Assembly: GCA_902728285.1 (NCBI GenBank)
Contig: CACVBU010000930.1
Location: 956,567 to 1,020,566, forward strand
Direction: 5' to 3'
DNA length: 64,000 bases
Source: Clytia hemisphaerica
Taxonomy: Eukaryota; Cnidaria; Hydrozoa; Leptothecata; Clytiidae
Position 1 is the stretch's first letter; every line of letters begins with the position of its first letter. Under the pieces are notes generated by a model, which was not told where the DNA came from, did no database searches, and saw only the letters and a program-made list of their open reading frames with translations. Below are positions 15,118-49,200 of this stretch, in pieces. The position numbers and the translations under genes are program-made.

Positions 15118-18100
15118 CTAAGGGGTAGCTATAACACGCCCCATATCTCTGATCTTATCCAAAAGCTTTGGACCTTCTTGTGACGTCATACGAACAGGAG
15201 TCTCCATGCTGGAGCGTTCCATTGGTTTCGTGATCCCGGCTGCTTCACGTCTCCTTCGCAGATGCTTTTTCAAAACTTTAGAAACAAAATGTCTGTGTGT
15301 GTCTGCAGAACTGAGGGAGCGTTTTCGTCGTTTTTGTAGACCAGGCAAAAGCTGGTATTTTGGATTTGGGGTATTGATGCTAACTCCGCCCATGCTTCTG
15401 AGGGCGGCAACAAGTGATTTGTCAACAGGCATCTGTTTGAATAAGGGATTCGCAAGGCTCGCCATGAATTCTTCTGCTGCGATCGCATCATCGGTGACCG
15501 TAGGTTTGGATTCTAAAGCTGCTACTGATTTTGGTATCTGCCCTGGGAAAATAGAAGCTAAGGGATCTTCCTTACTGCTAGCTTTGATGGCTTCAACTAA
15601 GGAGTTAGTGAGAGGTAAAGCGGCTCCGCCAGCGTTTGGTGTCGCTAATAGAATCTTTGGTGCCGCAGGTGTCACTGTCTTCTTGACCGGGTTTAAAGCT
15701 TTTTGTTGCTGGGAATTGAAAAGAGCAAGAGGATCCGTTGATTTTTTGCTGACGAAATCAAGATTCGAATCTTGTGGGATTGTTTTGTTTTGTTGGGTCA
15801 TAAACATCTTGACTGCATCTGGAATGATGCCACCGGCTGTTGCGTTTTTACCACTGAAACTTGTAGAGCGCCACTGTGACATGACCGCATTGGCTTGCTA
15901 AGGGATAAGGAAAGAAAACAAACGTGAAGGAGTTTGACACGATTTCTCGCCCGAGTATGCAATAATCTCGCCAAAGACTGTTGTCAAAGTGCTGTTGTTA
16001 TTAGCGTGGAATTTGACATAATTATAGATCAGGCGCCCAACTTCAGGAGAAGTCTATATAAAAAGTTTTTTCCCAGGTATGCTCAAAACATCCCTTTTGG
16101 AATATCCATGCTACAAGAGTGACCAAAATAACCTTCAACCTTCTTTAATTAGGCCTCAAGTCACCGACAAGAATGGGGGTATTCTGGACAATATCCATGC
16201 TGCAAAAGTGGCCTTTAAAGCTTTCTCCCTTCTCTAATTACAATTGTATAGAATCCCAAAAGTGTCAAAGACTTCAAGTAACTAACAAGGGGGGGTTGTT
16301 GTCAAATTTTGCTGCAAAAGTGGCCCTGAAAACCTTCTCTCTTCTCTAATTCCAATTGTGTAGGTCACCCAAAATAGTCAAAGAACAAGTGATACTTTTA
16401 TGGACCTACCTGGTTATGTATTAACACATATATAATTGATATCTACGTGACGTGACCATTAAACAATCATTCAGAACATAAACAGTGACGATCTATCAAA
16501 ATTAGTCGTTTGTTTCTTATAAAAAAAACGTTTAGAAAACAAAATTTCATGCTCTTGAAATATTCTTTCATATTCAAGACTTCGTGAGCAAAAAAAACAT
16601 CTATCTCATCAAAAAAATTGAGTAATTTGGCTAAGAACATTGATGTATGCTTATTAATAGTGATTCTTATAGATAGAGATGCGTTTTTTGAGCTGAAAAA
16701 TTCGTTTTTTACAAATATCTGCTTGAGCCATCTTTTACCTACTTTCATGCAAAAAATCAGAAAAAAACAATGATCCAATATTTCACAAAGTCCAAAAAAC
16801 CCGTTTTTTAGCTGTTTTTTGGCCCAAATTTGCCCAAAAACATTTTTTTTCGAAATCGGGCTGCGTCACATTCGAGGGCTTATAGTTATGTATCTTTGTG
16901 CAAAAATTCATAAAGAATGATAGAGCCAATCTCGAAAAAAGGCAATACCTAAGTAATTGATAATGTGCTTATAAAAAAATATCGAATTTGGCCAGTTTTT
17001 CTATAAAAAAACGCCAAGCAGCCAAAATTTCATGTCGAAACACTAATATTTATCAAAAGTAAGCCCCAATGAGCAAAAAAAAACATCTATCTCATGAAAA
17101 AATTGAGTAATTTGACTAAGAACATTGATATATGCTTATTAATAGTGATTCTTATAGATAAACATGCGCTTTTTCAGCCAACAAAATTTTTTTGCAAAAA
17201 TCTGCTTGAGCCATCTTTTACCTATGATGGTATAAAGTCAGATCGGTGTCAAAATCAAAACGTCGGGTCGTAATATCAAACCGTCAGATCGTCGGGCCGA
17301 ACCGTCAGGCCGTAATGTCAAACTGTCAGATCGTCGGGTCGAACCGTCGGGTCGTAATGTCAAACTGTCAGATCGTCGGGTCGAACCGCCGGGTCGTAAT
17401 CTCAAAAGGTCAGGTCATCGGGTCGAACCGTCGGGTCGTGATGTCAAAAGGTCAGGTCGTAATATCGAAGGGTCAGGTCGTAATATCAAAAGGTCGGGTC
17501 GTGATGTCGAACGGCCGGGTCGTAGCGTCGAACCAGACTGCCGGGTTAAACTGCCGGGATACAATGCCGGATTATCGGGTTTATCGGGCTTATCAGATTA
17601 GTTAAAATCTCGTTCCGCAGAATACTATAAACTAAATACTATAATACTAAGAACAAAAGTGAAAGCAAAATGGAAGCGAAATAATTCGATCAGTGAAATG
17701 TTTATATTTTTACCACTGATTTAAATAATTATACTTTCAGGTGTCTATAACATGTTTATATTATCAAAATCATGAAGTGTTCTTATTCAACTATCTTTGT
17801 GCAAAGTTTCAATGTTCATATTTCTATGATGCTGAAGATACAAGAAGATATTTCCAACAAGGCTGAATTCTTTTGCTAACCAATTTATACAGAACTATCT
17901 CTTCTCTTGCTTCTTTCAGTTAAATAACAATGTAGTCAATTTTGAACACTCAAGAGGAGAAAGAGATTTCTATTTTCTCTCGAAAGTGTGCATATGGATC
18001 TGAGAAGTGAAATGTAACTCATCAACAAGAGACAAGAAAGACTTCATCTCTTGAAAGTGTGCATATATGGATCTGAGAAGTGTATGAAACTCATCAAGAC

Positions 18101-21100
18101 AAGAAAGCCTTTTTCAAAGAAGATTTTCATGGTTCGTACTTCAAAATATGGGACATTTTTGTTCATCCAATGACTTGAAAAATCAACTCTGGAGACTGTA
18201 GTCTACATAACTTCAGAATACTTCGATAGAATCATGGAACGCGTATATTATTTTCTCGATAAAAGCACTGTATCATGAGATTTTGCATGAACCAAATAAA
18301 TAAAATGAAGTGAAAAGTAACTCTACGATGAACGAAAAACTCTGAGCTTTTGAGGTTCTGAGCATCATATTGTACTGATTTGGAATTTTATGAAATAATA
18401 ATGTTGAGGAAGTAGCAGTAGGACACATTGATTTGATTAAATTTAAAATCCTGTGACTATCATTGAAAATTAAGATCAAACCATCGATCAAGGGACTTAG
18501 TCTTCTTGTGCTTCTGGCATGGTTCGACTCTAAAGCTACATATCTCTGCACCCTTTTTTAAAGTCCTCGTACATGCTATGATTTGGGAACAGTTGAACAT
18601 ATTTTTCATGTACCAGTTTGTTTCGTGATTGATGGACATAGCTGCATTTTTTACAGTGGTATTATGGATATGCTGCTGTAAGAAGAACTGTTTACATTTT
18701 ATTTACGTTGTTAACTTGAGTGAACGTGGAATATTTTGACTGATGTTGTATGAAGTGACGATAAATACATATACTCAATGATAAAATTTTAAGATATTAA
18801 AAACATTTTCTGCTAAAAAAAGGAAGTATTTTTTCACCAACAGTTTTGATAAAATTTTATTTACTAGGCAACTTTTTTCCCTATGAAGTGCTACTGTGTG
18901 AAAAATTCTGAGGGTGCTTTAATTGAGAATTTTTTTTTGAATGGAAAGAAATATTTTGGAAGGCAACTTCAAAGAGGAGGTCATATTATTATTCAAATAC
19001 TTTTGCATCACTCTTGTTAAAAGTGAAGCCATAAAGTATTTCCAAATGTTTATACAGGAATTTTGTAATGTATGTTATTTTTTTCAAAAAATGTTTTATG
19101 CTTTATTTACCATTTGTTATTTTGTTCATCTGCTCTTGATGAAACACAAAGAACACAGGAAAACAAAAAAGAACTGTTTATATCTTCTCATCTCACAATC
19201 TCTTTGTGTATAGAAAAACTCTTGTGTAGTATTTACATTTGTGAATCAATTTTGGCATAGCAAAACAGAAAATTTCCTTCGTATAAGTATGATACAAGAC
19301 AGAAGAAATTACACGAAAGATTTTTCATTTTTCATTCACAAAGTATTTTTCGGTTTGTTTAGATTACGAAAACGAAAGTGAGAATCCCGTTCGACCAATC
19401 AAATTGTAAACTTTTATCGCGCTCGACCAATCAAATTCCAGACACGTGACCATAATATTTTGATTTGCTTAGTATTGGATTGTCCCTTTAAAAAATGATA
19501 TTTTACAGAACGATGTTAAATATCCCGATAAACCGGCATTGGATCCCGGCGGTCTGGCTCGACGCTTCGATCCGACCGTTCGATATTACGACCCGACCTT
19601 TTGACATCACGACCTGACCCTTTGATATTACGACCCGACCCTTTGATATTACGACCTGACCTTTTGACATTACGACCCGACCCTTTGATATTACGACCCG
19701 ACCCTTTGATATTACGACCCGACGGTTCGACCCGACGACCTGACCTTTTGATATTACGACCCGACCCTTTGATATTACGACCCGACGGTTCGACCCGACG
19801 ACCTGACCTTTTGATTTTGACACCGATCTGACTTTATATGATGGTACCCTACTTTCATGCAAAAAATCAGAAAAAATTAACGATCCAATTTTTCACAAAG
19901 TCCAAAAAACCCGTTTTTTAGCCGTTTTTTGGCCCAAATTTGCCCAAGAAATTTTTTTTTCGAAAATCGGGCTCCGTCACATTTTGGCCACCACCATTTT
20001 GCACCTTTGGACCAAAAATCAAAAGATTCCTATGATTCAATCCTGAGAAAAGTTGGTAACAGACGAACGGACGAACGGACGAACGGACGAACGAACGAAC
20101 ACAGGTTAATTTATAGGACCTCCACCCCACCGGGGTAGGTCCAAAAAGAATTTAAGTCACCGACGAAGGGAGGGTTGTTAAAGGGGTTAAATTATACTTA
20201 AAGGGTTGAATTATAATACCTCTCGAGCAGTCAGGGTATAGTTTTTCATAGTATGAAGAGCATATTTGTAGGCTTCTTCTTGAATTCGTTTCATAGTTGC
20301 CACCGCTTCTCGTTGTTGTGGTGCTAGAATCATAAGTAAAAATCCATTTTCAAGATCTACAATTGACGCTACTCTCAAAGTCGATTTTCAAGATAAATTT
20401 TACTTTCATCGAATAAGGGAGCATATATAGAATGGTAAAGCGTATATAATGGTTCTTTGTTTGCGGTGACTTTCAACATGATCGAATAATGGAGTGTTCA
20501 TAATACTAGATCGTCAAATTAGAGAGCCTCAATCTAAAACGAATATTTTATGGAAAAGATCATTTTGATTTTGACAAATATCCTTTAATGGTTATATTTT
20601 AGAACAAAAACAGAAAGCGCTAGAACCAAACTTCAATATTTCACTTGAAAATAGGGCGACTTTCGTTTTTGCGGGATGTTTCCATTAAGAGAATTATTAC
20701 ACGGCTGAAGAATTCTTGATTTGCGTAAGTCATCATTTTATTTACAAAAACACCCTCATTAACCGTGATTCTCCGGGATGAGTTTGTTGGAAAAGAAATT
20801 ACGAATATCAAAATTACATATCGACTGTAAATATCTAGTACTACAGTGTGAAAAAAAGAAAGTGCAAAATAAACACAGACATACTTGTTCTAGCAATCTG
20901 TTTGGCAATCACTTCATTTTGTTTGCAGATCTTGATCTGTTTGACGTAGTCCGGTAATGTTAGTTCACCGTTTGTGTACATCTTCAAATACTTTGAGCAG
21001 CTGTCTGGTATGACCTTTGGAGTTTTGAAATCTAAAAATGACAAAAACGACGAAAAGGTTTCACAGTTAATCTTGTGTGAGATATCAATATATTTTCAAA

Positions 21101-24100
21101 ATACGTCGTTTCGTCGTTTTCAAAAAAAAAAACATCTCATACACAACTGTATTTTTAATATTTACCTTTTCAAAATAAGAGAGATCGTACTCTGAGGGCA
21201 GAAACATTTTGCGATTTTCGGGTATCTTGGGCAAATTAGAGAAAGCGTATCATTATTAAACTATATCGCACAGTTTTTTAGAAGACCTACTCTATGGCCT
21301 TGAAGAATTTCTCCAAAGCAATTTAAAATTAATTTTGGGTTAGCCTTCAGTGACTCATACAAAGAATTTTTGTCTTGGAACTATCTGTTTTTGAAAAAAC
21401 CTAATCCGCCATTTCTTTATCCAGATCCCCGTCTGAATTAAGGAATCCAAGATTACTAGAGACTAAAAGTAGTCAAGAAAATTAAAGAAAGAATGATTAT
21501 TCGTGATGAAATATTTCATACGGAAGCTCTTAAAATAGCCCAGGCGTTTGCCATTAGTTTCATTGTTTAAATTCAAAACTAATGACAATTAATACCCGGT
21601 CATTTGTGGGTGCTTCCGTATGTAACATTACGTCATAATATCATGAAGAGAGGTGACACTGACCTTTAGCATGACTGGTAACGTTTTCTGGTTGTCCAAA
21701 TTCCAATTCTCCAGGGACACTTTTACTGTCACTTGTCAAATCATGTCTTTGAGACGTGAAGCCTGAAGAAAAATGTATTAAATGGTGAAAACTATTGTTT
21801 AGGTCGAACAGAAATTCTAAGATTATCTTTATAGTCCGGGAGCTAAGGAATGAGTAAAAGTCAACTGCCACTTTGCGAGGTAGTAATTATTCAAATTTAA
21901 TATTAATGAAAAATGTATTTCATGGTAAAAACTATTCCTTAGGTCGAACTAAAATTCCAAAATTATTTTTATAGTCCGGGAGTTGGGGATTGTCTTGACG
22001 TCGACTGCCACTTGACAATGTAGTAATTATTCAAATTTAACTTTATAATTTGATGAAATAAAATAATGTAGCCGATACTGTAGCACAATTAGAATGATAA
22101 TATAGTTGAATTTCGCAAATTCGAATTCGCACTGGACTCCTGAAGTGTTCGAATTGCAGAGAAATTAAAATTGTAGAGATTATTAATTTACCAGAGTCTC
22201 CCCTTGACGGGGACGGAGTTTTGTGTTCCGGTTATAAAAAGATTTGAATAATAAGTTCGATTAATGGAAATCCCACTCTATTTTTATTATTTTTATGCAT
22301 GTTGGTTGTTCCTTGATGCTGACGTACTAACATTTTGACAAGTGATTTTTGAAACAATGATAACAAATAATGCCTATTCAAATTTCAGCTGGGACCTAAG
22401 TTTACGGGTGAAACCCTAACCACTGGATTCAGAAAGATTAAAGAATCGATGTACAAGAAAGCATCAGTAGTTTGTAGAGATTGTCTCAGATCGAAATGGA
22501 CTTTTAACAAAAAATTAGACAAGATTCTTTAATTTTTGCAGAATTTTTGCAGAACTTTGTTGAAAGGAAAAGCCCCTTTTTTTGTATCTCTATTAGACGG
22601 AAACACACTCTGAGACGAAAGAACTTTGTACACAGATAAAAACACAAAAAGATACTCACTATTCCCTTTGCTTTCCTCTACCACTGCTCCCATTTCATAC
22701 TTGAACAATTCTGCCAAATTATCTTGAGTTTTGATGGTTTTAGTTAACAAAGCCAGTGTTTCCTTCTCAATATCTGATCGTGTAGCTCCTTTAGCGAAAA
22801 TTTCTTTCAATTTCGGAAGAGGTATGTTACCTTTCTTAGCAAAATCTTCCTGTGTGTTTTTATCATTCTTGATCCTGTCCCAGTCGAGTTTTTCCAAGAA
22901 GGCAGCATTCAACTGTGGGTTACTTCCATCTTGGAAGGGCACGGTTCCACCTGCAGGAACAGCACCTGCACCTTGGGTACCAGGTTGTTGCTGAAACATC
23001 TGTCCACCATTAGGGGCTCCAGGAGCTCCCATGAAAGCAAGATTCTGTTGAAAACTATTCAAAGTTTGTAAAGTAGGGTTTTGGGTGAGCATTCCCTGCA
23101 TCATAGCATTCTGGTAGGTAGCAGCCATCTGTTGTTGTTGGAGGTACTGAGCTGCAGCCATGGCTACCTTAGGGTCAGGGGTATTAGATTTGCTGTCAGG
23201 AGCCTTGCTTTTCTTGTCCGCATCCCCATGATGATGGTGGTGATGGTGATGATGATGGTGATGGTGGTGATGCCTCTTATCTCCTTTCTCCTGCTTCTTA
23301 CTGGAAGGAGCTGCCACTTTTTCTTTCTTGGAAGCCTTCTTACCGTCGCCTTCTATTTTCTTTGTCTCGGCTTCTTTCTTTGGTGCATCACCTGTAGCAG
23401 CCTTTTTAGCATCCTCCAATTTTTTTGGGGCTTCCTCTTGTTTCTTTGGTGCTTCCTCCTTCAATTTCTTGGCAACATCCACTTGTTTCGAAGCATCCTC
23501 TGTCAAATTCTTTACTTCTTCCTGCTTCTTTGGAGCATCCTCAACTTTTTTGACTTCCTCAGTTTTTTTATAGGTTTCCTCTCCCTTTTTAGGGGCTTCC
23601 TCCACTTTCTTAGGGGGTTCCTCCTTCATTTTCTTTACTTCTGTCTTCAATTCAGGCTTTTTCTGCTCATCCTTCTTTTGTGCGTTTTGCACTTTGGCAT
23701 CTTTTGCCTCTTGTTGACCCCCATTGCCTTTAACAGATTCAATTTTGCCAGCTTTCGTTTCTAATTTCACAGCTTTTAATTCTACTGGAGCTGTCTTGGT
23801 TTCAATTTCAGATGCTTTGGCTTCTTGCTCTCCTGTCTTCGACTCAGTATTAGCAGCCTTGGCTTCCATTTTTCCCGTCATAGCTTCTGTATGTCCAGTT
23901 TTGGATTCGATCTGAAAGGAAACAGTTTTAAATTTTTCGTGAAGGATATTTTGATATTGTAATTGATTAGGAAAATGAATAAATATGTAGTAAAGTACCT
24001 TAGCTGCCATTGTTTCAAGTTTAGCTTTATCGCTTTCTTCTTTACTATTGGTTCGCTTGTCAGCATTGGCTTTGTCTTTAGATTTCAACACATTGTTTTT

Positions 24101-26110
24101 CTTTGCAGAAGCGTGATGAATTTGCATGACGTCTGTCTCGACGTCGTCCGATTGGCCGGATCCCGATGATTCTCCTTCAATGGAAACAAAAACTGATTTA
24201 GAAGAATGACAGTTAAATATGCAAATAAGTACTTGGGTGAACATTAAATTCTCAATACTTCAAAATATCGTGCCTGACGGGTAATATCACAAAATCCATG
24301 AAGTTTTCCTCCGAGCTAATGTATTTTTTTCCGTGGCGGAGACGGTTAGCTTTTGATTTAGATCCTAACTGACTGAGCACTTTTACCGTCCTCTATTTTA
24401 CGGGTCAGGTTATTCTAAACCGCTTCAGTCACTCCGCTTTCCTCAAAAGTGATGATGCAAATACAAACTCTGTAATGGTTAAACATACCTGATTCTGCAG
24501 AATCACCACTTCCTTGAATCTCACTTCGTTTCGATGATGAAGATGAAGCAGCAGTTATCTTTTTCTTTTGTTGTTGCGCTTTAATGAAAGCTGAGGTGAC
24601 TTGAGCGATAGCATCTTTCTTGATTTTCTCTAAAGCTGCCAGTACTTCTGGTTGTTTCATCACATCACCACCCTCCCTTGATGCTGCTGATGAAAAAATA
24701 ATAATAAATTTAAACAATATATTTGATAAAACCTGCACCCAGCACTGCCGAGAACATGAGATAATATCCAAACTAAATGTCTCTAGAAGTCTTATAAGAG
24801 AAGATTCAAGGTTTAAAAGAAGATATAAAGAGTGGAGGTAGAGGCTCTTCATGGAAAAAAAACAGTATTGTTTACAAGTTTGATATTTGTTGGGAAGATT
24901 GTATTTTTCAGTTTTGAAAAGCCAGTTACCGAGATAACTTATGAGAGCCACATGTTTTTTATACCGGGTGTCCCAGAAAAAAGTTCTGCTCTTTGAAGTG
25001 AATTTTCTCGAGTTCTATGAATTTTTAAAAGATCAATTCTTTTGCATAGGAAAGATGAAAGATAAACTTAAATTTTGAGGGGTCATTTATCAAATTTGGT
25101 CAACTAGATCAAAAATTATGCTGAAATGAATAAAAATTTCATTTTGAAAAGGCTCAAAAACGTTGAAAATCGACCTATCAAATTTTATAACCTAATTATT
25201 ACTTTTTTGCAGGAATAAAGAGTTTAAAGTGGACATGAAAACAAAAAATGCTTGAAATAATTCTCTAAAGGACTAAAAAGTTTCAATTGGGTCATTTCCA
25301 ATTATTTTCTATGGAATTCAGCTTCAAATTTTGGCTTAAGGACCCCTAAAGTCAAAAGTAGCGCTGATTTCATCAGTGTAGCTATTGAAGTCAAATATCG
25401 GTTGGAATTATCAAATTTTTCAGTTTTTCAGATAAATTTCTTTGTTTCACTTAAAATCTTACTTCGTTTTTCATAAAAAGATACTTCCATTAGGTTTTTA
25501 TTGCTTCAACAATGAAAATCATGCTCCATGCAATTATGCTTCTATAACAATTTGATAGGTCGATTTTCAACGTTTTTGAGGAATTACAAAAAAAAGAATT
25601 TTTATTCATTTTGATCCAGTCGACTAAATTTGATAAATGACCCCTCAAAATTTAATTTTATCCTTCCTCTTTCCAATGCAAAAGGATTGATTGTTTAGAA
25701 ATTCATAGAACTGGAGAAAATTCACTTCAAAGAGCGGAACTTTTTTCTGGGACACCCGGTATATAATAGGGGTTTTAGTTCGACATGAGTATAAGTGCAA
25801 ACCCTCAAATAGGCCGGCTATTTCAGAAAAACAAATGCCCCTACTTCGAAGAGAATTTCTGTTCAGAAAAAAAAGCTATAAAGTCTAGGGTATCAAAGAA
25901 ATTTCATGATCAAAATCCAGATGAATACCTCAAAAATAAAAACAAACCCAGGTAGGATCTCTGATATTCCAAAAAAAGTCCCCTCAACATGGACATTTTG
26001 AATGTCTAATGATAAATACCAAAAATCTTACCTTTTTCCTTTTGCTTGCCTGCATTTGCAATATAAAAGCAAAGAGTGACCAAAGTCACCATTAGCCACC
26101 ATCGACACAT
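15118..26110 (-). CDS. Secreted Lys/Glu-rich protein with 15-His tract, family not recognised
   Basis: Eight minus-strand exons: 26032-26110, 24489-24686, 23999-24174, 22660-23911, 21664-21762, 20885-21031, 20220-20323 and 15118-15897. All junctions are GT-AG and phase-matched; the sum is 2835 nt, 944 residues plus TAG. Residues 1-20 form a signal peptide (MCRWWLMVTLVTLCFYIANA). Residues about 150-360 are Lys/Glu/Ala/Pro-rich repeats such as APKKQEE and should be coil or helix. His 365-379 are 15 in a row. Then come a Gln/Ala/Met/Pro-rich part, a helical segment (DWDRIKNDKNTQEDFAKKG), two cysteines in exon 6, and the tail. KRRKR at 874-878 is a furin-type site, with RRRR at 899-902 after it. 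N-glycosylation sequons occur (NVT, NYT, NAT, NKT). The role is unknown: metal-binding, matrix or precursor functions are all guesses. The start is chosen for the signal peptide and the phase fit. Confidence 0.85.
16580..17230. repeat. Tandemly duplicated intronic repeat, about 480-bp period
   Basis: A segment with GAGCAAAAAAAACATCTATC and CTTGAGCCATCTTTTACCTA appears at 16580-16740 and again at 17067-17230. The second copy is split by foldback 2 and resumes at 19847 with ACTTTCATGCAAAAAATCAG. Confidence 0.75.
17233..19836. mobile_element. Foldback-type transposon with 21-bp repeat ends (family 2)
   Basis: The outer ends TAAAGTCAGATCGGTGTCAA and the inverse at 19817-19836 lead into arrays of about 21-bp units (GTCGGGTCGTAATATCAAAAG type) running in opposite directions, 17258-17600 and 19535-19815. 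A duplicated TATGATGGTA at 17223-17232 and 19837-19846 marks insertion; its length is 8-10 bp because the end bases are ambiguous. The roughly 1.9-kb interior is AT-rich without a recognisable gene. The element lies in the last intron of the poly-His gene. Confidence 0.83.
20063..20102. repeat. Microsatellite (GAACGGAC)n
   Basis: About five copies of ACGGACGA/ACGAACGA units in the intron between 15898 and 20219. Confidence 0.85.
21770..22045. repeat. Tandem duplication of about 140 bp in an intron
   Basis: Two diverged copies share TTTATAGTCCGGGAG, CAACTGCCAC/CGACTGCCAC and GTAGTAATTATTCAAATTTAA. They lie just 5' (on the gene's strand) of the 99-nt exon at 21664-21762. Confidence 0.8.
24962..25761. 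repeat. Palindromic element, TACCGGGTGTCCCA ends, TA target
   Basis: An 800-bp inverted repeat in the first intron of the poly-His gene: TACCGGGTGTCCCAGAAAAA pairs with its inverse at 25742-25761, and the arms match over several hundred bases. Ends are flanked by TA, as in mariner-type MITEs. No transposase. Confidence 0.85.
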
Positions 26111-29549: not shown

Positions 29550-29942
29550 ATGAAGATAATCGCCTGTTTAGCCGTTGTGCTATGCATCATCCAATGCACG
29601 TACGCCGATGGAACAACTGCAAGTCCGCAAAAGAAAACATGCAGTGACTTATTACGGACCAAGCCGTAAGTTTTTTCCTAAGTTTTTTTCCGTAAAATCT
29701 TTAGGGAACAAAAAATTGTTCATGTTTTATTAAGTTACACAAGGTCCGCCATTACGGAAGTTAACGTTCGATTTGCGTATAAGATCGCCTCACAGATATC
29801 TTACATAAAAAACTACTATCGAAAATTAAATGACGAAACAAACGAAATTTTCCCCGGCCTTAATGCGTTTACCAAGCGTGACGAAGCGAAAGAAATTTTA
29901 AGCCGCGGCAGTTCAATCAAAATAATGTGCCATCTTTCTTGA
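29550..29942 (+). CDS. Secreted small protein or 5' end of the repeat gene
   Basis: Exon 29550-29665 encodes a signal peptide (MKIIACLAVVLCIIQCTYA) and TCSDLLRTK. Exon 29744-29942 adds AYKIASQISYIKNYYRKL and ends IMCHLS-TGA, giving 104 residues. The mature part has two cysteines, C31 and C101, and is otherwise helix-prone. This is one unit of the Cys-to-Cys design repeated in the following exons, with longer spacing (69 residues between them). The TGA at 29940-29942 is directly followed by GTATAC, a donor-like sequence in phase 0, the phase required by the next exon at 30457. So it is either a complete two-exon gene or the broken or regulated 5' end of the large repeat gene. Function unknown. 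Confidence 0.65.
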
Positions 29943-30456
29943 GTATACCACATTAGTACCACAGTTCGGTACCGGTAATTTTTTCAATTAAACAAAAAAA
30001 AGAAGGAGGCAAGAGAATGGACTTTATCGATCAAATTGCTGGCCTTAAAAAGGCTTCCAGGCAATTGTTTGCTACCGTTGAAAGCTTTAGGTCTCAGATT
30101 TCTAGAGACATTAATGTGAAATGTAGTTGTTCTGAGCTACGGTCAGTTGTTTGATGAAAGCTAAAATGAAGTTGATGAAAAGCCCTTTTTGGTGACAAGT
30201 GCCCTGAGTAGGACAGGTCTTTTAGGGTAAGTTTTAAGGGTTCCAATAATGGGTTGATATGTGAAACGATGCATAGAAGAGCTTTAAACAATGAGAAACA
30301 CGAATCTTTTTAGGCGATATCCGAGCATTTCAGCCGTATAATTAAAAGAGTTTTTCAAAAGTTATTTACGAAAATTTGTCCGCAATTCTTTTTGTTTCAA
30401 GGTTCCTCTCCCTCGTTATCCCTCCAAGTCTACGAATCGATTTTATATTTTCGTAG

Positions 30457-33400
30457 ACATGTGACTCATTACAAAAGCTCGTTGATCGTTTGAAAGAAGC
30501 AAAAAGTACAATTCAAGATGCTATCGATGCTGCGGTGAAAGCTCACGTTCAGACCAAAGAAGAAATCAAGAAATATGTCAAAAATTTCATCGCCCAAAGA
30601 ATCCAATGTGAAAAGATCTTGTCGGAGCGTAAGTTTATCGAATATTCGTTTCTGACGTTTTAGTCATACGGGGTATAACTTGAGTACAAATTTTAATATT
30701 CTTTTCTATTATCTAAAATGTAAACTTTTATATTTCAAACTTACTCATTTTTTGCAATTTTAATAACTTCGAAGAAAAAAAAACCCGCAAAAGAATTTAA
30801 AAAGCAAAGCTTTTTGAAAATATAAAATAAGAAGTTTACTTTATAAATGGTTTTCTCCTTCCTCACTTGATATTTTAGGTCAACCATAGTCTAAATGAAC
30901 AAAAAAACTAAATTCTCAAAAAGTCTGAAGATCGTGTCGCCCAATTTCATATTGAATAAAAAATAGCTAAAATATTTTCGTTTTGGGCAACTGACCTCTA
31001 AGCCAATTTTGAGATCAGCTTCTCACGAGTGTGGCAAATAGATGAATTATCATTGGAGTAAGGGTTTAAACATGTTGATCGCGGCTTCGTCGTATTTTAG
31101 TTACGTGTACTAACTTTCGAAAACGAGACAAGATGAGCATTTTTAATATCACGGCTTCCTGGCGAGATAAAATCTTTTACCTTAGTTTTCTGACAGTTAA
31201 AGCTTTAGGCACCTTTCAGCCCTGAACAAAGTAGATATTAAGAGTCAACCTAAAAACAAACAAAGCGAGAATTGAAATCTTCCCTGTATGAAAATCGAGA
31301 TCCGCTTAAAGGTTGTTACCTGAACTACAAAGGTGTGAGAGCATAGGCGAGGGTAATCGGACATGCGCCTGATGACGACTTGTTTGGTCCAATTTTGAAA
31401 TTTTTTGAAGATTATGCATCTATCCAACAGTAAGCCGTTATGGAGGTGCAATAATGTTCCGTTTTCCATGATCCATTTCAATGTGAAATGGCCTATTAAC
31501 TGTGAAATGGTTTCGAGTTACTGAGGTTCGGTATGGAAAGTATTACTGTACCGCATAGGCCTAATTTTACCTTTTCAATTGTAATTTTTGCTTATTCCAT
31601 CCAGAGGTGTACTGTTTTTGGTGCAGTTGCCAAGCAATTAAATTGACCAAACAGCAATGGCAAACAAGCCATGAAAAGCTGTTTCCACCGGTAAGAAGGC
31701 GCAAAACAGTTTACCAAGAAGTCTTGAAGTCCTCCAAGGAGATATTGACCTGTGACCGAATCCTTGGAGCTGAGGTGAGACAAATTTAAGTACGGTTAGA
31801 AAGGTAAAATACCCTTAACTGCCGAATTTAAACCCGGCAAATTTTTTTTTCAAGCCATCCGCCGATTGAAATTTTCTCTGAAAAAACTTTTTCGAACATC
31901 CGCTAAATATTCTTGTCATTCTTTTCCTTTTAAGGTATTTTCAACATCAAAGTGGTAGAGTTTCTAACCGGGTTGGGGGGTCCATGGTCGCAAAAGGGAC
32001 AGCGTTTCAAAAGGGTACCCAAGTTCGAAAACTTACATATGCAGCCCAGGAAAAAATCTTCGATTGTCTCAAAGTGGGCCATCACTATAAATCCTTTAAG
32101 CTTGCAAGAATTTGGGATCAGCTTTGGATAAATTTCATGAACAACGTCAACTTATTAAAGAAGCCATCCTCGATGTTGCCATGAAACATTACAATAATAC
32201 CAAAAATCTCTTGGGACTTGTTCAAGAAGAGCTGGCGAAAAGAATCACTAACTTCCAATGTAGCTCTGTCATGCCTGCTGATGTAAGTAGTATTATAACC
32301 TTGAAAAATTTTCTTCAACTTTTTAGTAGTGCTTAATTGGTCTGAAAACCACCAAAGATATTTTAGGACGTGCTGAAGAGAATGGTTCTAAGATTTTTAA
32401 ATAATAGCAATTTGGAAACCAGTAGAATTTGCAAAGAGAATTTTACTAAACGGGCAAAATCTTTTCCAGCAGTCATTAAGGTAGGGGATCCAGCTACGGT
32501 GCACGAGGTTATGGGTTCGATCCCCAGCCGGACCGTCTCTGCATGATGATGTCGCAAACTTACTTTTACTTAATTTTTTCCTAAGGCAAATTTTCTCTAC
32601 TATTTTTACTCAGCTTTGTACCAAAATTATGGAAATTGCAACCCACTTAAAAATCAGTACCGACAAAGTTCGTGAAGCCATTGAATTAGCTGTTATGAAT
32701 GGTTTGAGTACTGCAAACGCTATCTACAAATTCACCTTGGACTTTTTGACTGACCTTATCTCATGTGATAAAATCTTATCCCCAACCGTAAGTGACTTAT
32801 TCATTTTTTATGATAGATTATCTTTTCATTCTGTCAACGTTGCGCCAAGGCAGCTTGAAGGCGATTAGGTTCCAGTTCACCAGAACGACCTCATAAGTCT
32901 CAAGCCATTGCATTGACGCGTTAGCATACCTTATCGGGGAAAACTTCGTCGGGGAAAATTTTCGTTGGTGAAAGTTTTCGTCGGGGAAAAATTCGTCACT
33001 TGCTGGTAGTTGGTAAACGCATTAAGGCCGGGGAAAATATTCGTCACTTGTCCAAAATTTCGTCACTTTTCCCCGACGAAGTTTTCCCCGATAAGGTATG
33101 TAGATATTTTCCAATCTTTCGAACCCGAACCTCTTCTTTTAGCATAGAGAATGAAAATATTAATGCCATATACAAAATACATAAAATAAACTGTAATAAC
33201 CTTTGGAGCTGGCACACAACGTTGTTTCAACGTCCATCTAACGTTATATGGACGTTGGGAACATTAGATGGACGTTGAAACAACGTTGTGTGCCAGCTGG
33301 GTTTGGAGATCATACATTTATGATATACCTAGGTCATTTTTCTAACGGAAACATCCGAAAAAAGCCGAGATTTGACCACTGTCTATCGAAAATTTTTCAA

Positions 33401-36400
33401 TGGCCGTAACTAGTCTTAATTTTTCTTCCTTGTTACACTAGGCATGTGCCAACTTTGTTGAAGCCACTAAGAAATTCAAAGAACAAACCAAACTCATCAA
33501 ACAAGCGATCATGGATGCTGTCGAACAGAAGATTACAAACGCTAAGGAAATCACCAAATACGTTGCTAACAAAATCATTGAGATGGCTGTCAACTTTGAA
33601 TGTACTGATGTCATGCCACAAAAGGTATTCGATTATTCAGTACCAAATTACAGTAAACTCGTGCTTATTCGGACTTCTATTATTCGAAATCCTCTATAAT
33701 TCGAACTTGTTTCCAGTTCCCGTCAAGGAGAAACCGTTTCAAAAAACTTTCTATAATTCGAATCTTTTTGTAAATCGAAGAAATAAGATTCCCCATTCCA
33801 GTTCGAAAAAGGAAGAGTCAACGAACTGTATTACCCCCCATCTTCCAACAATTATTTTGAGCCAGAGGTATTAATCTCAACGCTGACAGTTGGGGATGGG
33901 CCCACGTGATGTGTCTCAGATAAAAATTGGAAGATTGCAGGTGCCTAATAAATATCCCCGTTTGCTAAACCTTTTTTTGATAGAGATTTTGATGAAACTA
34001 TGCTGGTTTAGTATTTGTATTCTCATTCAGATTAATGCACATTTATAATGTCTTTTTAGCAATGTGATCTTTTATTCAAAATTGCTGGACGTTTTCACAT
34101 TCGTACCAAAGAATTGATTCGAGTTCTCAAACAGGCTATTGTAGATGGTAAAAGTACTGTAAAAGCCATTTATGATGTAACCATCAAAGCTCTGGTCAAT
34201 GAAGCAAAGAACTTGACATGTGAAGAAATGATCGACCCAACCGTAAGTAGTATAAATTTCTTGGTATTGCATCATTTCAAGGGTAAACAAACACTATGGT
34301 TCAACTCGCTGAAAGATTATGCGTACTGAAAAACACAAATTAATCGTTTGCAAGTAACACTGAAAGCACTCTGTTTGTGTTTGTTTCTATTTAATTATTT
34401 TGGCGTAATACGGTCTGGAAATCGAGACTAAACTGTATTTGTAAAGTTTCTTCCAGAAAAACCCTCGATTACTGTATGTTCGATTCGCCATACTCCTTTT
34501 GAAGCACTGGACCACACCTCTGATGTAGAATTGTCTCTCTTCTCAGTGTGACCCCTCTACATAGATTTATTACTTTAGGAACTTAGTTTATAGATTTTCT
34601 AACTATTTAGTAACTGACGATCGCAGTCTGTAGTATGTTTTAATTTTAAAAAGATTAATTTATTACTTTTGTGTGTTACAGGTTTGTGCCGTTCTAGACA
34701 ACTTTGCTTCCAAATTGAAAGAAACAAAAGATGACGTCACAAATGCTGTACGAACAGCTATTGCCCAAGGAATGACCACTATCCAAGATATTAGAGCTTA
34801 CGTTAGAAATCTTTTGGTCGATGAAAAATCATGCTACGACTTCTTCAGAAGCCACGTAAGTTGAATATACCTTTTCGACCGTAGCCGCCAATTGCCGCGC
34901 GGGCAATTTTTTGTCCGTTTGTCCTAAAACCGTCCCAGTCTTTTTTTCACACCTAAAGACGATAGAAAAAGGTGTAAAAAAGGAATTGGATCAAGTTTCG
35001 GGTGGTAAAAGGGACAAAAAAATGCCCGCACGGCAATTGGCGGCTACGGTCGAAAAGTTAAATGCACTGAGCTTCATGTAGTCTGAATCGCAGACCTCAA
35101 CAAAACCACATGTAGTATAAGGAGCACAAATCCGTTAGTGGATGCCAGTAGCCTAATCTTGCTAACCATACGTGTTGGTTGTTGAAATATTCATTATTAG
35201 CGCTTTTTGATGCTAGTAAACATTTAAAAATACTTCGCGGATAAGACCATATTAAATTTCCATTGGGACTTAATTAGTATATGTAATCACATGATAACGA
35301 GTGCAATTCGAATATAATTGCACGAGTGATTTTTTTGTTATTAATTTTCCGAGTCCGAAAGGACGAGGGAAATTTTCGAATTGTACGAGTTATTATGTGA
35401 TTACGAGCTAATCGCACAATGGCTTTCACTACTTTTTCCCAGTTAGGAAAGTAAATTACAGAAATTACACTGAGAGTTTTATATTTTTCTCTTCTCTTTA
35501 TGTCTTTTTTTTATTGTTGTTTATTGATTTTCTTTCTCACAAAATAAATTTTGAATGCAATTAAAACGTTCGATGCAAAAAAAAATGTAGGAAAAAACAT
35601 TAAAATCAATTTTGTAAACATTGGCGCGGCATTGGAGAATTGGAGAGTGTGATTAACAATTAATTGCTCTCTACAGGATGCAATTAACGATTAATTGCTC
35701 TCTTTGAGGGCGTGCCAAATAAGAAAAAATAACCCATCGTGCGATTACGCGGATAACACCCGAATCCGCGAAATCCACGAAACTTAATCCCATTAAAGTA
35801 TCAGTTTTAGCCTACGAATTTTTCCCCAGGGTGTAAAGACGGTTTTTTAAAGAAATTAAGTCTTCCAGTTACTGCAATTCCGCTAGTTTCTGTCGAATGT
35901 GGCACATGAACCTAGACTTGAGTCGTTTATAATGCGTGTAATACAGTAGTATAGGCGTTATATGATAATACGATTATTGTTACGGGATTTAGTTTGTATA
36001 AACAAGACTAAAATTGCTCCCCCCCATTACTTTTTGCTTTATTTCTACTATGTCTGAATTAGTCGTCTAGCTTGAGCTAACTTCATTTCACTAACTGGCG
36101 CAAAAAACTACTTTTTAGTATCTAAAGATTAGAACCCGTGGCAGGCGCTTCCAAGGAAGTTACAGAGCTTTTCGATCGGAGAGTTTCAGTATAATTCCTT
36201 TTTTTCAGCTTGTTTGTAAATCTATTCAACTTGGAGCTTGGATCAAAGGAGTGACTTTTGACCGTGTGATCAACAAGATCAAAGAACTTTATGCTAACGG
36301 AGTCACAACTATCAAAGGAATCCGACAAAAATTGCGAGAGATTTTCGGAATCAGTACGCCAGACAGAAGACGCAAATCTGCCATCGGTATATTAGTTTAT

Positions 36401-38682
36401 ATGATGTTCGGGGAAATTCCCCCGGTGAATTTCTACCCAGTGAATACCTACCCTATGTGAATCCCCCCTAGTGTATTCTCACCCGGAAAAATTTCCCCCA
36501 CCAATTTTATCGGTTGGTTGCCAGGCAAATTTAGACTGTAGCTCAGTTATAGCCTTCCCTCATTTTTAGTAGGTAGAAAGTTGGCTGTATAAAGTCAATA
36601 TTATGGTGCCTTTTAAACGCAAATACATTGGCATCTTTCAATTTTTTCAAGCTAAATTACTTTGTATTGGCTAATAAAATAATGAAAAGGTGAATAATAA
36701 AAGTTTCGTTGTGCGTTGGACAAGCCAGCTGGTCACTTGCTTTTTGTCCGAAATTCCGACAAAAAGTTCACCTGCTGTCTCAAAATTCTTTTTGCAATCT
36801 TGATAATATATCTTTCAATCACTAAAAATGACCTTTGTATTTCCAGTGAAGACTTGCTGAAATTCTAAAATAATCAGAGAAAAATAATCAAGATTTTTTC
36901 TATAATATGGCTGTGTTACAAAACTAAACCAATTCAAATTTGGACTGTACTTTATAGGTATCTTAGCTACAAAAGATGAAATCGTCGACTTGGCTATGCA
37001 AATTGTTGGTGGAATTATGAAATTCAGTCAAAAAGCTACAGAAAACATCAGAGCTGACATTCGCAAATTGGTTGAATCAGGAAAGATGCGTCTCACTAAC
37101 ATGTACTCCAAAGTGAAAGAATTGATCCAGAAATATAATCCACTTAGTGACGGTAAAAACCATTTATTGATTTTAAGTTTACTCTCGTTTAAAGGTTTTT
37201 TTTTAAATAAGAGTGATATCGTTTGCTTCCTCGTCAACTTTGAGATATTGAATTGATAAGGATGTGGAGCAAGATTGGTCAGAAAGAGGAAAAGAAAAAC
37301 ATTTTTTTTGTTTATATCAGCACAATATAACAATAGGCAGACACTGTCCTGATATTAAATATGTGTCTGATATGAAACGGGAAAAATAATACCTTTAAAT
37401 TTTCATAGTAGTGAACCGTAAAAATAGAGTATTCAGCTACAGTGCACAAGATAATGGGTTCAATTCCTAGCTGGGTCATACCAAAGACTCAAAAATTGCA
37501 CTTGTAGCCTCCTAATTAATGCTCAGCAATTAAAGAGAAAGACCGAGGGTAACCGGAGTAATCCAGCTTTTTTATAAACATGATAACGTTTATAAGCATA
37601 TACAGACTCAGTTTTTGTTGCCTAAACATTTGGTGCTATTGTTTAGAACGATAGAATGCTAAGCATAATGCGAGTCTGATATAGTGACAGACACTTGCTT
37701 ATAAAAATTAACATGTAAGTGCATTTTCTAAACAGTTTCAAGTTCATAACCATGGGCCAAGGTATCATCTAGCCTATTTTTTAAGAGTTTAGTTTTGTTC
37801 ATCTCTTCATTTTTTTTTGGATAAGATGTATTATTAGTTATTGCTTCTTAACAAAAATTACTTATTTCATTCTTCCAATATAGAATTCGAGGATGAAGTT
37901 CCATCAGATATGAAGAGTCTTTCCGAAACATACAAAGCTGCACGTAAAGCTTTAGCATTGGCTATCCAACGTATTATTTTGATTGCCAAACGAGCTGGAA
38001 TGAAATCAGGTAAAATGATTGTCTTAAGGCCGGTCTCCACTTGCACGCGCTGCGATTGCACCTTTTGGCTTCAACTCTTTTTGCTTGGAAAAAAAATTAC
38101 GTCATCAGAATGTAGCACGCGCTCGAAAAAAAAGTTGAATACATTTCAACTTTTTTCAACCGTTACGTCAGATTGTACCAATGGAATTGCTTCATTTTTC
38201 TTTTGACCAATAGCGTGGTAGCTTTACTCGAGAAAGTACGATCACAGCGTGCACAAGTGGAGACCAGCCTTTATTTTTGTTTTTCATTTCCAAAACGTTT
38301 TCTTAAATGAACCAATAAGAAATATCCTGTCAACCAGGGATAACATTTCATTGCAGTCCACACTTTAATAATTCAATTGAGACTGTCTGTATATAAAGCT
38401 ACAACCTGCCACAAATTAATACCCAGGCAATAATTTCATCATTCTTTAAACCTGGGGTTTACCTATGTGAAAAGGAGCCTTCGGTACGCCTTATTTACTG
38501 TTGCTGGAAGACTTATTAATGGAAGGACCTATCCCGAATGCATTCGGAGGGCTAATATCTATTTGAAGACTTATTAACTGCTTTTCTTATATTTTACAGA
38601 GGCATTGATGAAGATGATCAAAGACTTGTTGTACAAAGAAGGAGTCAAAGATCTTAACAACGCAATGTTGTCTGCTTTCTAA
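30457..38682 (+). CDS. Secreted-type protein of tandem one-exon helical Cys repeats
   Basis: Ten exons in one phase chain: 30457-30628, 32101-32282, 32614-32787, 33442-33624, 34060-34242, 34682-34855, 36209-36386, 36958-37152, 37884-38009 and 38600-38682 (1650 nt, 549 residues plus TAA). Exons 1-6 each encode one unit: a cysteine at residue 2, amphipathic helices with patterns like IKQAI, AVEQ and STVKAI, and a second cysteine 49 or 52 residues on, then about 7 residues to the donor. Spacing is C-x48-C in exons 1, 3 and 6 and C-x51-C in exons 2, 4 and 5. Exon 7 keeps one cysteine; exons 8-10 have none but stay helical and Lys-rich. Most introns are phase 0, so units can be duplicated without frame damage. 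The N-terminus must come from upstream, probably the exons at 29550-29942. I do not recognise the family; each unit is probably a disulfide-closed helical bundle. Confidence 0.78.
31607..31774 (+). pseudogene. Possible relic repeat exon
   Basis: 168 nt between acceptor CCATCCAGAG and donor GTGAGA, phase 0 at both ends, reading VYCFWCSCQAIK at the start and EILTCDRILGAE at the end. The tail matches the unit pattern (compare ISCDKILSPT). It cannot be inserted between exons 30457-30628 and 32101-32282, which join each other in phase 1, so it would shift the frame. A decayed or skipped unit is likely. Confidence 0.4.
32470..32545 (+). repeat. tRNA-like SINE fragment
   Basis: CAGCTACGGTGCACGAGG followed by GGTTCGATCCCCAGCC resembles A and B boxes of RNA polymerase III promoters. 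A sister copy lies at 37428-37485 with CAGCTACAGTGCACAAGA and GGTTCAATTCC. Neither folds to an evident functional tRNA by eye. Confidence 0.4.
32927..33098. repeat. MITE, TACCTTATCGGGGAAAA ends
   Basis: A 172-bp palindrome: TACCTTATCGGGGAAAACTT pairs with its inverse ending at 33098. Internal short motifs such as TTCGTCGGGGAAAA are repeated. Lies in an intron of the repeat gene. Confidence 0.8.
33206..33301. repeat. MITE, CAGCTGGCACACAACG palindrome, copy 2
   Basis: Inverted ends AGCTGGCACACAACGTTGTT and its inverse; same family as 1915-2012. Confidence 0.8.
33651..33880. repeat. Degenerate pogo-like MITE
   Basis: Begins CAGTAAACTCGTGCTTATTC and carries repeated ATAATTCGAA motifs like the clearer copies at 43824 and 49977. 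The right end is not well defined. It starts only 26 nt after the donor of exon 33442-33624. Confidence 0.45.
34871..35057. repeat. MITE, CTTTTCGACCGTAGCCGCC ends
   Basis: A 187-bp palindrome starting 15 nt after the donor of exon 34682-34855. CTTTTCGACCGTAGCCGCCA pairs with its inverse ending at 35057. Confidence 0.8.
37428..37485 (+). repeat. tRNA-like SINE fragment, second copy
   Basis: Shares the spacing of the A-like and B-like boxes with 32470-32545 over about 55 bp; lies in the intron before exon 37884-38009. Confidence 0.4.
38026..38272. repeat. MITE, AAGGCCGGTCTCCACTTGCAC ends
   Basis: Inverted ends GGTCTCCACTTGCACGCGCT at left and its near inverse at right. It starts about 16 nt after the donor of exon 37884-38009. 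Confidence 0.8.
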
Positions 38683-46262: not shown

Positions 46263-49200
46263 ATGTTGGCAAAAGCATTTTCCAGAAGATCACTAACCAA
46301 ATGCTTTAAAAAGACAAACTTAGAATGTATCCGGACCCTGACCGGCCTCAAAACGCCAAGCCAATGTGTCATACAAACACCAAAAGATATGCCGAATTTG
46401 ATAGATTGCCGTCAAGGAGAAAGGTAATATTTTTTATTTCTTTTAATCATGTATACATATCCAAATCTGTAATGTTGCACTCCCTACGATATCCACTAAA
46501 ATGAAATTCAGAAATTCCTGATAATGTAAAAGTCTGAAAGGTTAGATTGCAGACAGATGTAACTCATCCCAAGCAAATAAATTGAAGTCAATTCTTCAGC
46601 TGTAACTTGAGATTTCGTGCAGATTGATTGTTTCGTGTAATTCAATTTTGAAGCACGTTATAATAGGAGTTTTCGATAAACGGGACTCCTAGACTTTCTC
46701 CAAGCCTTTTTTTAAGAACCCCCCTCACTACTGAAAGGAAATCTTAATGACCACCTACATTTTACAGTTTTTTAGGGCACCCTCTTCCCTGAATGGGAAA
46801 AAAGCAGTCTCCTCATTAATAATATAAAGATTCGAATTTGATGGAGCTGACAGTTTGTCACTTTCTTTTCTAGGACACCAGGTCTGTTCACATCAGAAGA
46901 GATGGACTCACGTTTATCAACCCTCCGTAATAAAATGTCTGAAATGGGAATGGATGCAGTTGTGTTTACCTCATATCACAATATTAATTATTACAGTCAA
47001 TTTTTGTATTGTTATTTTGGAAGACCTTATGGTTTAGTTATCACTAAAGATAATATTTCAACTATCTCTGCTGGTAAGAATTTTTCTTTAGTCATTGGCC
47101 TCGTTTCCATGCATAGCGCACCGTAGGGTAGTTAAACATTCTCATTCAAATTCCTGATGAAACCCAAAAAGAAGGATTGCAGATACGACTCCTCCCCAGG
47201 GAAACATTTCTTGGCGCTTTTCCAGGTTCTTTCTGAAGTTTTTTCCAGGCGTACCGGTAAATTATTTTTTTTCTGCGTATAAATGCATAGACAAGTTGCA
47301 AAAACCTTGAAACTGACCATCTAACAAGTTGTGTACCTAACAGAGTGTTGGTCTTTAATAAGAAGGCTATCCTAAGGCACTAAATTTACACCTATAATAT
47401 AAGCCTTGCAGAAATTTCCTTAGTTCCTTAGTAGCTAATCCAGTTGAGCTTTACTAGCTTTCAAGCAGGTACACGTTTGTACACTTTCGTCTTTATAGAA
47501 TATATTATAACTTTAACATTATTGACCGACAATCTTAACCTCGCTAATAATACGACGAGGTAAAATTAAATTTCGAAATTATACCCTTGACCGGGTCAAA
47601 GCCAAGACGTGAAAGATAGAACTGACTAGTAATGGCTAGGATTAGGTATGTAGAGATAATTTTCCTCAAAATTGATTCTATAGGTATCGATTATGGTCAA
47701 CCTTGGAGGCGCGGTAATAACGCTGAGAGCGTCACATACACGGACTGGGAACGAGATAACTTCTTCAAAGCAGTCAAAGAACTTGTGGGTAACAACCAAA
47801 ATGTTGGTTTGGAGTATGACCATTGTCATTTACAATACTTTGAAAAATTCCAAAAGGCACTTCCTGAAGCGAAATTTGCAGATATTGGATTACCCACAAT
47901 GAAATTAAGGATGGTGAAATCGCCGGAAGAAATTGCTGTGATCAGAAATGGTAAGATAATTCTTGTTAGCAATTGGTGATCATTTTATGTCATTTGTTGG
48001 AATTTCTGCAACCTACGCTATGAAGATGATTTGATCGGTCGGAAGACGATTCACAAAACTTAGAAACTTATTCATTACATCTATCCGAAGACACGTGTTT
48101 CGTTCTGCCAGGAATTATTTATTAGCAAATGAGAAACACAAACATTCGGAAAAGAGAGATATACTGGTTGTCCCAAAAAACTTTACATAAATTTGAATGC
48201 TGATATCTTAAGCCAGCATATCTTAAGGACCTTTTAGGGTCTCTTAGGAATTAATCCTTACACGTTTGTGTGAAATTTCAGGAACATTTGATATGTCAAT
48301 CAAGAAAAATAGGTCAGCGAGTATTGCAAGGCCTAATATCAAACCGGCAAAGAAATGAAAAAAATTGACGTCAATTTGTAGTTTTTTAATCTTAATTTTT
48401 TTGGGACACCCGGTAGAATAGAAGATAGGAAATGAAATAGGTGACTTTATGAGATACAACAATACAACATCTTCCAACATAAGTATACACTAAAAAACAC
48501 CTGCTTAGTTGGCTCACTTTTCTTTGTTATAACAGGTGCACGAATCGCTGACCTTGGCGGATATGCCGTGCGTGAAGCATTGGAGGAAGAAGTACCTGAA
48601 CACGAAGTTGCTTTACATTCAACAAGGACAATGATCAGAGAGATTGCAAACACATATCCACAGACAGATATTATGGACAGTAAGTTATCATTCATGATAT
48701 TCATGATGTAATGTTTCCTACGGAAACAACCCGGTTTTTGCCAGTGGTGGCAAATTTAAACTAGACAAAAATCGTTCAAAACTTGCCACTAATGGCAAAA
48801 ACCGGGGTCTTTCCGTAAACAACATTAAGTCACGAATATCATGAATTCTAAGATTCTTAAATTCATGATATTCATAACGTTATCTTTTATACGGAAACAC
48901 CCGAAAATCACCGGGCGTTTGCCACTAGTTTTGAATTTTTACATTGAAACTGGTGGTGAACCATAGGCGTAGCGAGATACCCTGCAAAATTTATGGATGA
49001 GAGTGGTTTTTACGACAATATAATTATTGTCTTTGATTTATCAAAAGATAATGAATATGTCATAAAACGTCTGCATTCCCTCATAAATTTTGCAGGGTAT
49101 CTCGCTACGCCTATGAACGCCCTGTGTTTTTCGTGTAATTCCGTGTAAAAGATTACGTCATGAATATCAAGAATATACACCTGTCTACACGGGCGTTATT

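Follow-up and report, generated by a model that had tools for sequence, protein, structure and literature searches.

In a 64,000-nucleotide stretch of the genome of the hydrozoan Clytia hemisphaerica (positions 956,567 to 1,020,566 of contig CACVBU010000930.1, labeled C643 here, of a 417-Mb assembly with 951 contigs), referred to below as the window, a gene assembled from repeated unit exons extends on the forward strand from position 29550 to position 38682 of the window. This gene probably belongs to a lineage-restricted hydrozoan family and encodes a secreted string of helical units of approximately 60 residues, stapled to one another by disulfide bridges across the exon borders. The exon-built, probably secreted repeat family as such is real and under constraint. 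Secreted tandem helical repeats are a known kind of protein, of which this family is a variant.

The core of the array consists of six predicted unit exons, W1 (30457..30628, 172 nt, C-x48-C), W2 (32101..32282, 182 nt, C-x51-C), W3 (32614..32787, 174 nt, C-x48-C), W4 (33442..33624, 183 nt, C-x51-C), W5 (34060..34242, 183 nt, C-x51-C), and W6 (34682..34855, 174 nt, C-x48-C). Every exon is flanked by AG and GT, and joining them yields one open frame, with phases running from 0 to 1, from 1 to 0, and then four times from 0 to 0. The original prediction, made from the DNA letters of the window, had described six exons of 172 to 183 nt with compatible phases, and these borders and the single frame bear that description out. 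Its statement that the two cysteines of a unit show only two spacings is correct for W1–W6 (48, 51, 48, 51, 51, and 48, in this order), but not for the family, in which spacings of 40 and 32 also occur. Similarly, each exon does encode one unit, as claimed, but the six exons are not strictly consecutive, since a probable further unit that had been missed, u1b (31627..31774, C-x40-C), lies between W1 and W2.

Profile analysis showed that the units belong to a single repeat family. Leave-one-out profiles recovered W1–W6 with scores of 20.8 to 49.0 bits, compared with best scores of 9.4 to 13.2 bits in shuffled sequences (0 of 5000 shuffles per unit), and when all Cys were replaced by Ala the six scores were still above those of all 5000 shuffles per unit. 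A profile built from 13 units of paralogous genes alone found W1–W6 among the 2121 open reading frames (ORFs) of the window with E-values from 1.4e-13 to 1.5e-7; the next matches in the window were W7 (E = 0.14) and exon 8 (E = 0.58), both described below. W1 had the second-best leave-one-out score of the six, yet it was the weakest match to the paralog-only profile. Two Cys columns are invariant across the 19 units that make up the full family profile.

The gene continues beyond the array that was originally described. W6 is followed by a last unit, W7 (36209..36386, phase 0 to 1), which has one Cys, is followed by the basic motif RRRK, and resembles the last units of two paralogs, C722 and C455. 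Three C-terminal exons then lead to the stop codon at 38682: exon 8 (36958..37152; assigned by frame and profile), which is Cys-free and predicted to contain partly unit-like helices, exon 9 (37884..38009; frame and phase only), and exon 10 (38600..38682, stop codon included; frame and phase). When W7 and exon 8 were each compared with the full 19-unit profile, none of 3000 shuffles reached their scores, and the array therefore appears to pass into Cys-free, unit-like helices toward the C terminus. Exons 9 and 10 together show no clear resemblance to a unit (their profile score was reached by 33 of 3000 shuffles). At the other end, a signal exon (29550..29665) encodes MKIIACLAVVLCIIQCTYADGTTASPQKKTCSDLLRTK followed by the two bases CC; it has a hydrophobic N terminus and a GTAAGT donor, ends in phase 2, and would supply the first half-staple Cys. 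This is the only good signal exon upstream of the array. A scan of positions 1–33000 for a Cys located 6 to 8 codons before a GT listed six frames, and the five others were rejected, being without a consensus donor. Based on its hydrophobic N terminus, the window gene probably encodes a protein of the secretory pathway. Our preferred gene model, model A, comprises the signal exon, u1b, W3–W7, and exons 8–10 (1560 nt, 519 amino acids plus stop). All phases match in this model, and there is no stop or frame break in its ten predicted exons, nor in W1 and W2. The locus as a whole holds eight unit exons.

Three genome searches, which used window or paralog proteins as queries, led to the same four loci, namely, the window and C455, C722, and C599. 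Of these, C599 contains two tandem family genes (C599a and C599b), which brings the genome total to at least five, a lower bound because the search scores best candidates only; one search gave a further weak match, in C473 (E = 5.9). The N terminus of each paralog is a hydrophobic segment that closes with a Cys motif (e.g., MKSVLIALASILLLQAVSARSAALDAPSTCEDVLKAE) and is followed by units and a last unit. AG/GT borders and phase 0 were found in all 12 paralog unit exons for which both borders are covered, 11 of which are 183 or 174 nt long and one 129 nt. In both C599 genes, a single exon encodes the signal segment together with unit 1. A different helical repeat, likewise encoded by exons and with a Cys close to its end, is also present at C599 (LDIExKYPxLQxKVKQ... 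plus KECK or a similar motif; L025 8716–10000 and L026 1–557). For this repeat, four matches at E ≤ 1 were obtained, all of them in one gene, in a search that was not exhaustive, given that a local comparison revealed a weaker copy in the neighboring gene.

Comparison of the paralogs indicates how the sequences and the arrays have evolved. Over 180 codons of units 1–3, C722 and C455 differ at proportions of synonymous (pS) and nonsynonymous (pN) sites of 0.79 and 0.26, respectively, and the changes at codon positions 1, 2, and 3 number 57, 31, and 110. Judged by these substitutions, there is purifying selection between C722 and C455; the synonymous sites are near saturation, and therefore only the direction of the pS/pN contrast counts. 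Selection was estimated for this pair and for the C599 pair. A tree was built from 19 units, excluding u1b, the short unit of C599a, and every last unit. In this tree, unit 1 of C722 pairs with unit 1 of C455, and likewise for unit 3; W5 clusters with the second unit of both genes, and W2 and W4 fall near their first units. Together with the phase-0 borders of the paralog exons, this grouping by position, in a weakly supported tree, agrees with the earlier proposal that the array expanded by exon duplication. The order of spacings in W4-W5-W6-W7 (51, 51, 48, last unit) equals that in C722 and C455, and the window gene therefore looks like that ancestor with extra N-terminal units.

The disulfide arrangement can be approached by counting. 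All five genes share an N-terminal segment ending in a Cys, and at all 26 junctions examined the units are joined by a C-x7-9-C pattern. The spacing across the border is 8 in 23 of these junctions, with two exceptions of 9 and one of 7; the two fused C599 borders without an intron, which are among the 26, also have a spacing of 8. Within units, the spacing was 51 in 12 cases, 48 in seven, 40 in one, and 32 in one (21 units counted, last units left out). The mature protein of model A has 12 Cys, one from the signal exon, two from each of five units, and one from W7, while three further Cys are located in the signal peptide. Pairing across the borders uses all 12 mature Cys (spacings of 8, 8, 8, 8, 8, and 9), whereas pairing within units leaves two over. 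The modeled part of C722, with eight Cys, gives the same accounting, which entails that in both proteins within-unit bonds would strand the Cys of the signal exon and that of the last unit. Because the junction spacing is steady where the within-unit spacing varies, and because the Cys accounting points the same way, the disulfide is most likely a C-x8-C staple across the exon border, a placement derived from spacing and not from structure.

A helical fold is suggested by several lines of analysis. The family-average hydrophobicity is periodic near 100 degrees, both in columns 3–28 (shuffle p = 0.0026) and in columns 34–50 (p = 0.0008). Modeling of W3 alone with AlphaFold2, using a seven-row alignment, predicted three helices (residues 2–11, 16–28, and 34–55) with a mean predicted local distance difference test score (pLDDT) of 85. 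With the hydrophobic N termini, these predictions make it probable that the family is secreted and helical, as had been proposed.

In the arrangement that we favor, each C-x8-C staple would tie the end of the third helix of one unit to the start of the first helix of the next, so that the product would be a string of amphipathic helical beads braced by covalent bonds. Each intron would interrupt the staple at the same point, in phase 0 or, at two positions of the window gene, with a shift of one or two bases. If an exon were duplicated, lost, or skipped, both half-staples would still find partners, and no odd Cys would arise inside the array. Arrays of 4 to 6 units with far-drifted sequences would be accounted for in this way, because the phase-0 introns cut the staple at one place. 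If correct, a staple across an intron would be a clean example of how a disulfide on an exon border allows a repeat protein to gain, lose, and splice units while keeping every bond intact. As to function, the protein may be an extracellular structural or ligand-holding component of secretory cells (in mucus, cuticle, or matrix) and not an enzyme, an assignment that we hold with somewhat less than even confidence. Many secreted proteins restricted to cnidarian lineages have no family assignment and are hard to trace between species; here, a defined unit, a border rule, and a readable exon history provide a profile that can be searched for in other hydrozoans.

The start of the gene is more complex than the original prediction had recognized, as it contains a phase conflict. 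The signal exon ends with CSDLLRTK plus CC, in phase 2, and is incompatible with the phase-0 start of W1; if the two were joined directly, 11 wrong-frame codons would be followed by a stop. W1 (phase 0 to 1) fits W2 (phase 1 to 0), which in turn fits W3. The sole unit found to fit the phase of the signal exon is u1b (phase 2 to 0). It opens with T-TGC, whereby CC plus T gives Pro and TGC gives Cys, so that the junction reads CSDLLRTKPC, again C-x8-C; it closes with CDRILGAE before GTGAG in phase 0, the usual family end, and thus fits W3. Against the family profile u1b is weak (95 of 3000 shuffles reach its score), and its acceptor is weak as well. We scanned both strands of the window for the border pattern of AG, Cys, 36 to 56 codons, Cys, seven codons, and GTRWG, which picked out five places: u1b in phase 2, W2 in phase 1, and three phase-0 units, W3, W5, and W6. 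First-order random sequences (n = 100) contained on average 0.00 such places in phase 0 and 0.02 in phase 2 per 64-kb strand, these being the two phases that the simulation covered, and this expectation is post hoc in that the scan was designed after u1b had been noticed. W1 and W4 miss the strict borders of the scan, though they are real by other evidence. W1 and W2 are unlikely to be dead exons, given that they contain no stops, match both one another and W3 in phase, and include, in W1, the second-best leave-one-out score.

Along the chromosome the order is signal exon, W1, u1b, W2, W3, such that two phase pairs are interleaved. One idea, which we consider improbable, is that alternative arrays are kept apart by intron phase, which would serve as a lock, the signal exon being linked to u1b in phase 2 and W1 to W2 in phase 1. 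Each paired exon would then fit only its own partner, and u1b and W2, both ending in phase 0, would both lead into W3. Given a second first exon, none having been found here, such a lock would let one locus produce two secreted proteins that differ in their first units, without mixtures of the two, and the half-staples at the borders would be completed correctly in either form. Two open frames between the signal exon and W1 were considered as additional units and rejected. The first, u0 (29965–30141, forward strand), is a 177-nt open frame that begins and ends in phase 2, has a good donor and a Cys shortly before its end, and looks unit-like by eye; 1010 of 3000 shuffles score as high in the family profile. 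The second (29735–29943, forward strand) comes directly after the signal exon, is phase-compatible with it, and ends in Cys-His-Leu-Ser-stop; its profile score was reached by 1225 of 3000 shuffles. This second frame could be an alternative short product.

Several observations weigh against a secreted string that is stapled at every border. A last unit with a single Cys occurs in the window gene and C722 only; in C455, the last unit contains a second Cys and the signal segment further ones, and both C599 genes carry extra Cys in their last exons. Conserved exon ends could be partly behind the steady junction spacing. The selection contrast is weaker between the C599 genes (pS 0.47 and pN 0.23 for unit 1 plus the signal tail; pS 0.60 and pN 0.36 for unit 4), and only 2 of the 16 inner branches of the unit tree have full support. 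Net charge is not conserved between the family genes, the isoelectric points of the modeled parts being 9.4 (window), 8.8 (C599a), 8.6 (C455), 5.9 (C599b), and 5.8 (C722); this difference also speaks against a shared charge-driven antimicrobial role. Columns 3–14 alone are not significantly periodic (p = 0.11), and although structure prediction did return helical units, as anticipated, AlphaFold2 modeled W4 as a two-helix hairpin with lower confidence (pLDDT 75). Finally, we found no way to link the signal exon in frame to W1 or W2, none of the best 12 of 41 candidate bridging exons being convincing.

The original prediction had each unit closed by its own C-x48/51-C disulfide, which would make the protein a series of independent helical bundles, like beads on short linkers. 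W1–W6 each contain exactly two Cys, near their ends, and the confident three-helix model of W3 alone suggests that a unit may fold by itself. Four within-unit spacings (51, 48, 40, and 32) nevertheless stand against a nearly fixed junction spacing, and the signal exon and the last unit contribute one Cys each in the window model and C722, so that within-unit bonds leave Cys over. In a simple up-down-up bundle, moreover, the first helix would be expected to begin at one end and the third to finish at the other. We regard closure within units as unlikely on these grounds. The main alternative with respect to role, which is compatible with stapling across borders and to which we likewise give a low probability, is a secreted lipid-carrier polyprotein similar to the nematode polyprotein allergens, whose units would hold fatty acids or retinoids and would possibly be cut apart once secreted. 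The tandem helical units with amphipathic periodicity suit a lipid carrier, as do weak, sub-threshold Pfam matches to apolipoprotein models and the basic motifs that follow W7 (RRRK) and the last unit of C455 (KR). On the other hand, unit borders such as CDKILSPT/AC, CTDVMPQK/QC, and CEEMIDPT/VC are without a basic cleavage motif, the Pfam model for nematode polyprotein allergens is absent among the matches listed, and the units, of approximately 60 residues with two or three predicted helices, contrast with the seven helices described for ABA-1 (PMC3079579). The basic motifs after the last units (RRRK after W7; GKR in C455, L020 9798–9998) may, by their sequence, be sites at which the C-terminal tail is cleaved from the Cys array; no such motif was seen after the last unit of C722.

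A more skeptical view of the locus is that it is partly in decay, a phase shift of the signal exon having broken the link to W1, with u1b as a relic and the array not translated as drawn. The misfit at the gene start, with its early stop upon direct joining, the poor profile score and weak acceptor of u1b, and the position of W1 as the weakest of the six against the paralog-only profile would fit such a history. However, the ten exons of model A, as well as W1 and W2, are free of stops and frame breaks, the leave-one-out score of W1 is among the best, and the phase of u1b exactly restores C-x8-C with the signal exon and returns the frame to phase 0. Decay thus seems rather unlikely, and model A, encoding an array probably stapled across its borders, remains our preferred description. 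Chance open frames or a misassembled repeat, with no gene at all, can practically be dismissed, as the similarity between units, the exon borders, and the selection signal all exceed chance; the inverted repeats seen by eye in two introns (33210–33300 and 34870–35060) would be the point in favor. These inverted repeats have the size of small nonautonomous mobile elements.

Searches against known families support the view that this family is not one that already has a name. In Pfam, neither the whole protein nor the joined paralog proteins had a match above the curated cut-off among the matches listed (the best 25 of 28 at E ≤ 10 for the whole protein; for the four joined proteins, all matches for three and the best 25 of 26 for the fourth), and the 19 units scanned singly reached a best E of 0.0034 (best 25 of 34 at E ≤ 1). 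HEAT_5MP1_2 (E = 0.00098; 19.3 bits versus a cut-off of 26.5) and the KilAC, MCM8, Rv2175c, and DnaB_2 models (E = 0.00009–0.0006, all below their cut-offs) were set aside as chance matches, because they are scattered over unrelated helical models. NCBIfam gave nothing convincing (best E = 0.0077), nor did PDB sequences (best E = 0.053 with the profile, to a designed helical bundle, and 0.08 with a single protein). Foldseek searches with the unit models had best E-values of 1.9 (W4) and 5.1 (W3), and 0.79 in a viral library, and short helical models generally match poorly. No clear match to a known domain thus emerged from the profile searches. No description of the family was found in the open-license literature searched, although it could be in print elsewhere, and relatives are likely to exist among the predicted proteins of other cnidarians.

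The family nonetheless has features in common with known secreted repeat proteins. Prosaposin and saposin-like proteins also consist of secreted tandem helical units held by disulfides; saposin-like units have six Cys each, as opposed to two in the window family, and the saposin model is absent among the Pfam matches listed. Insect allergen repeat proteins such as Bla g 1 are likewise secreted tandem helical repeats, with repeats of approximately 100 residues that are not known to have the Cys pattern seen here, and the insect allergen repeat model is also absent among the Pfam matches listed. A further parallel is with the nematode polyprotein allergens, which are said to occur in nematodes only (PMC3079579). 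The units of ABA-1 are described there as secreted, tandem, and all-helical, with seven helices and two conserved Cys, and thus share the secreted tandem all-helical layout and the two conserved Cys with the window family. Unlike the window family, they have the disulfide inside the unit and basic cleavage motifs between units, and, unlike the window gene, most of the repeat region has very small or no introns, according to the same paper (PMC3079579). Within Clytia, a study of PF1 (PMC12225738) describes a secreted family with conserved cysteines and no match outside Clytia that is highly expressed in larval neurosecretory cells. Compared by description only, PF1 and the window family are both hydrozoan and secreted, with several homologous genes and conserved cysteines, whereas the PF1 proteins, unlike the window protein, are described as short (PMC12225738). 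A further study reports that 31 of 37 cnidarian-restricted sequences were unique to Clytia at that time and that signal peptides were predicted in 13 of those sequences, of 77 to 526 residues (PMC4169000); by these counts, genes of such a kind are not rare in Clytia.

Elsewhere in the window, two closely similar reverse-transcriptase frames, recognized by eye, run in opposite directions (8322–9396, reverse strand, and 9514–10764, forward strand), the latter matching RVT_1 (E = 6.7e-7); they probably represent a Penelope-like element. Two tandem-repeat frames on opposite strands (17228–17605, forward, and 19503–19892, reverse) share a similar repeat of the VVISKGRVV type. A Lys/Glu-rich open frame of 576 amino acids with a run of His (22529–24259, reverse strand) had no Pfam match at E ≤ 0.01. 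Exons of a creatinase/prolidase-like M24 metallopeptidase gene are located at 47626–47979 and 50819–51310 on the forward strand (Creatinase_N, E = 4.9e-8; Peptidase_M24, E = 2.6e-21), and a Baculo_FP match just below its cut-off (24.0 versus 24.7 bits) lies at 58482–58874 on the reverse strand; this domain occurs in mobile-element proteins, too. Outside the window, contig C900 (14.5 kb) bears mitochondrial genes, with 12 protein genes, named by eye, on one strand in the order cox2-atp6-cox3-nad2-nad5-nad6-nad3-nad4L-nad1-nad4-cob-cox1, which presumably is a hydrozoan mitochondrial order; the organization of hydrozoan mitochondrial genomes is treated in PMC4655093. ARAGORN, run with the bacterial code, reported one tRNA on this contig, with anticodon TCA. 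In the part of COX1 inspected, all six AGA/AGG codons fall at positions that are usually Arg, which fits code 4 (used by cnidarians, among others) and not the invertebrate code 5.

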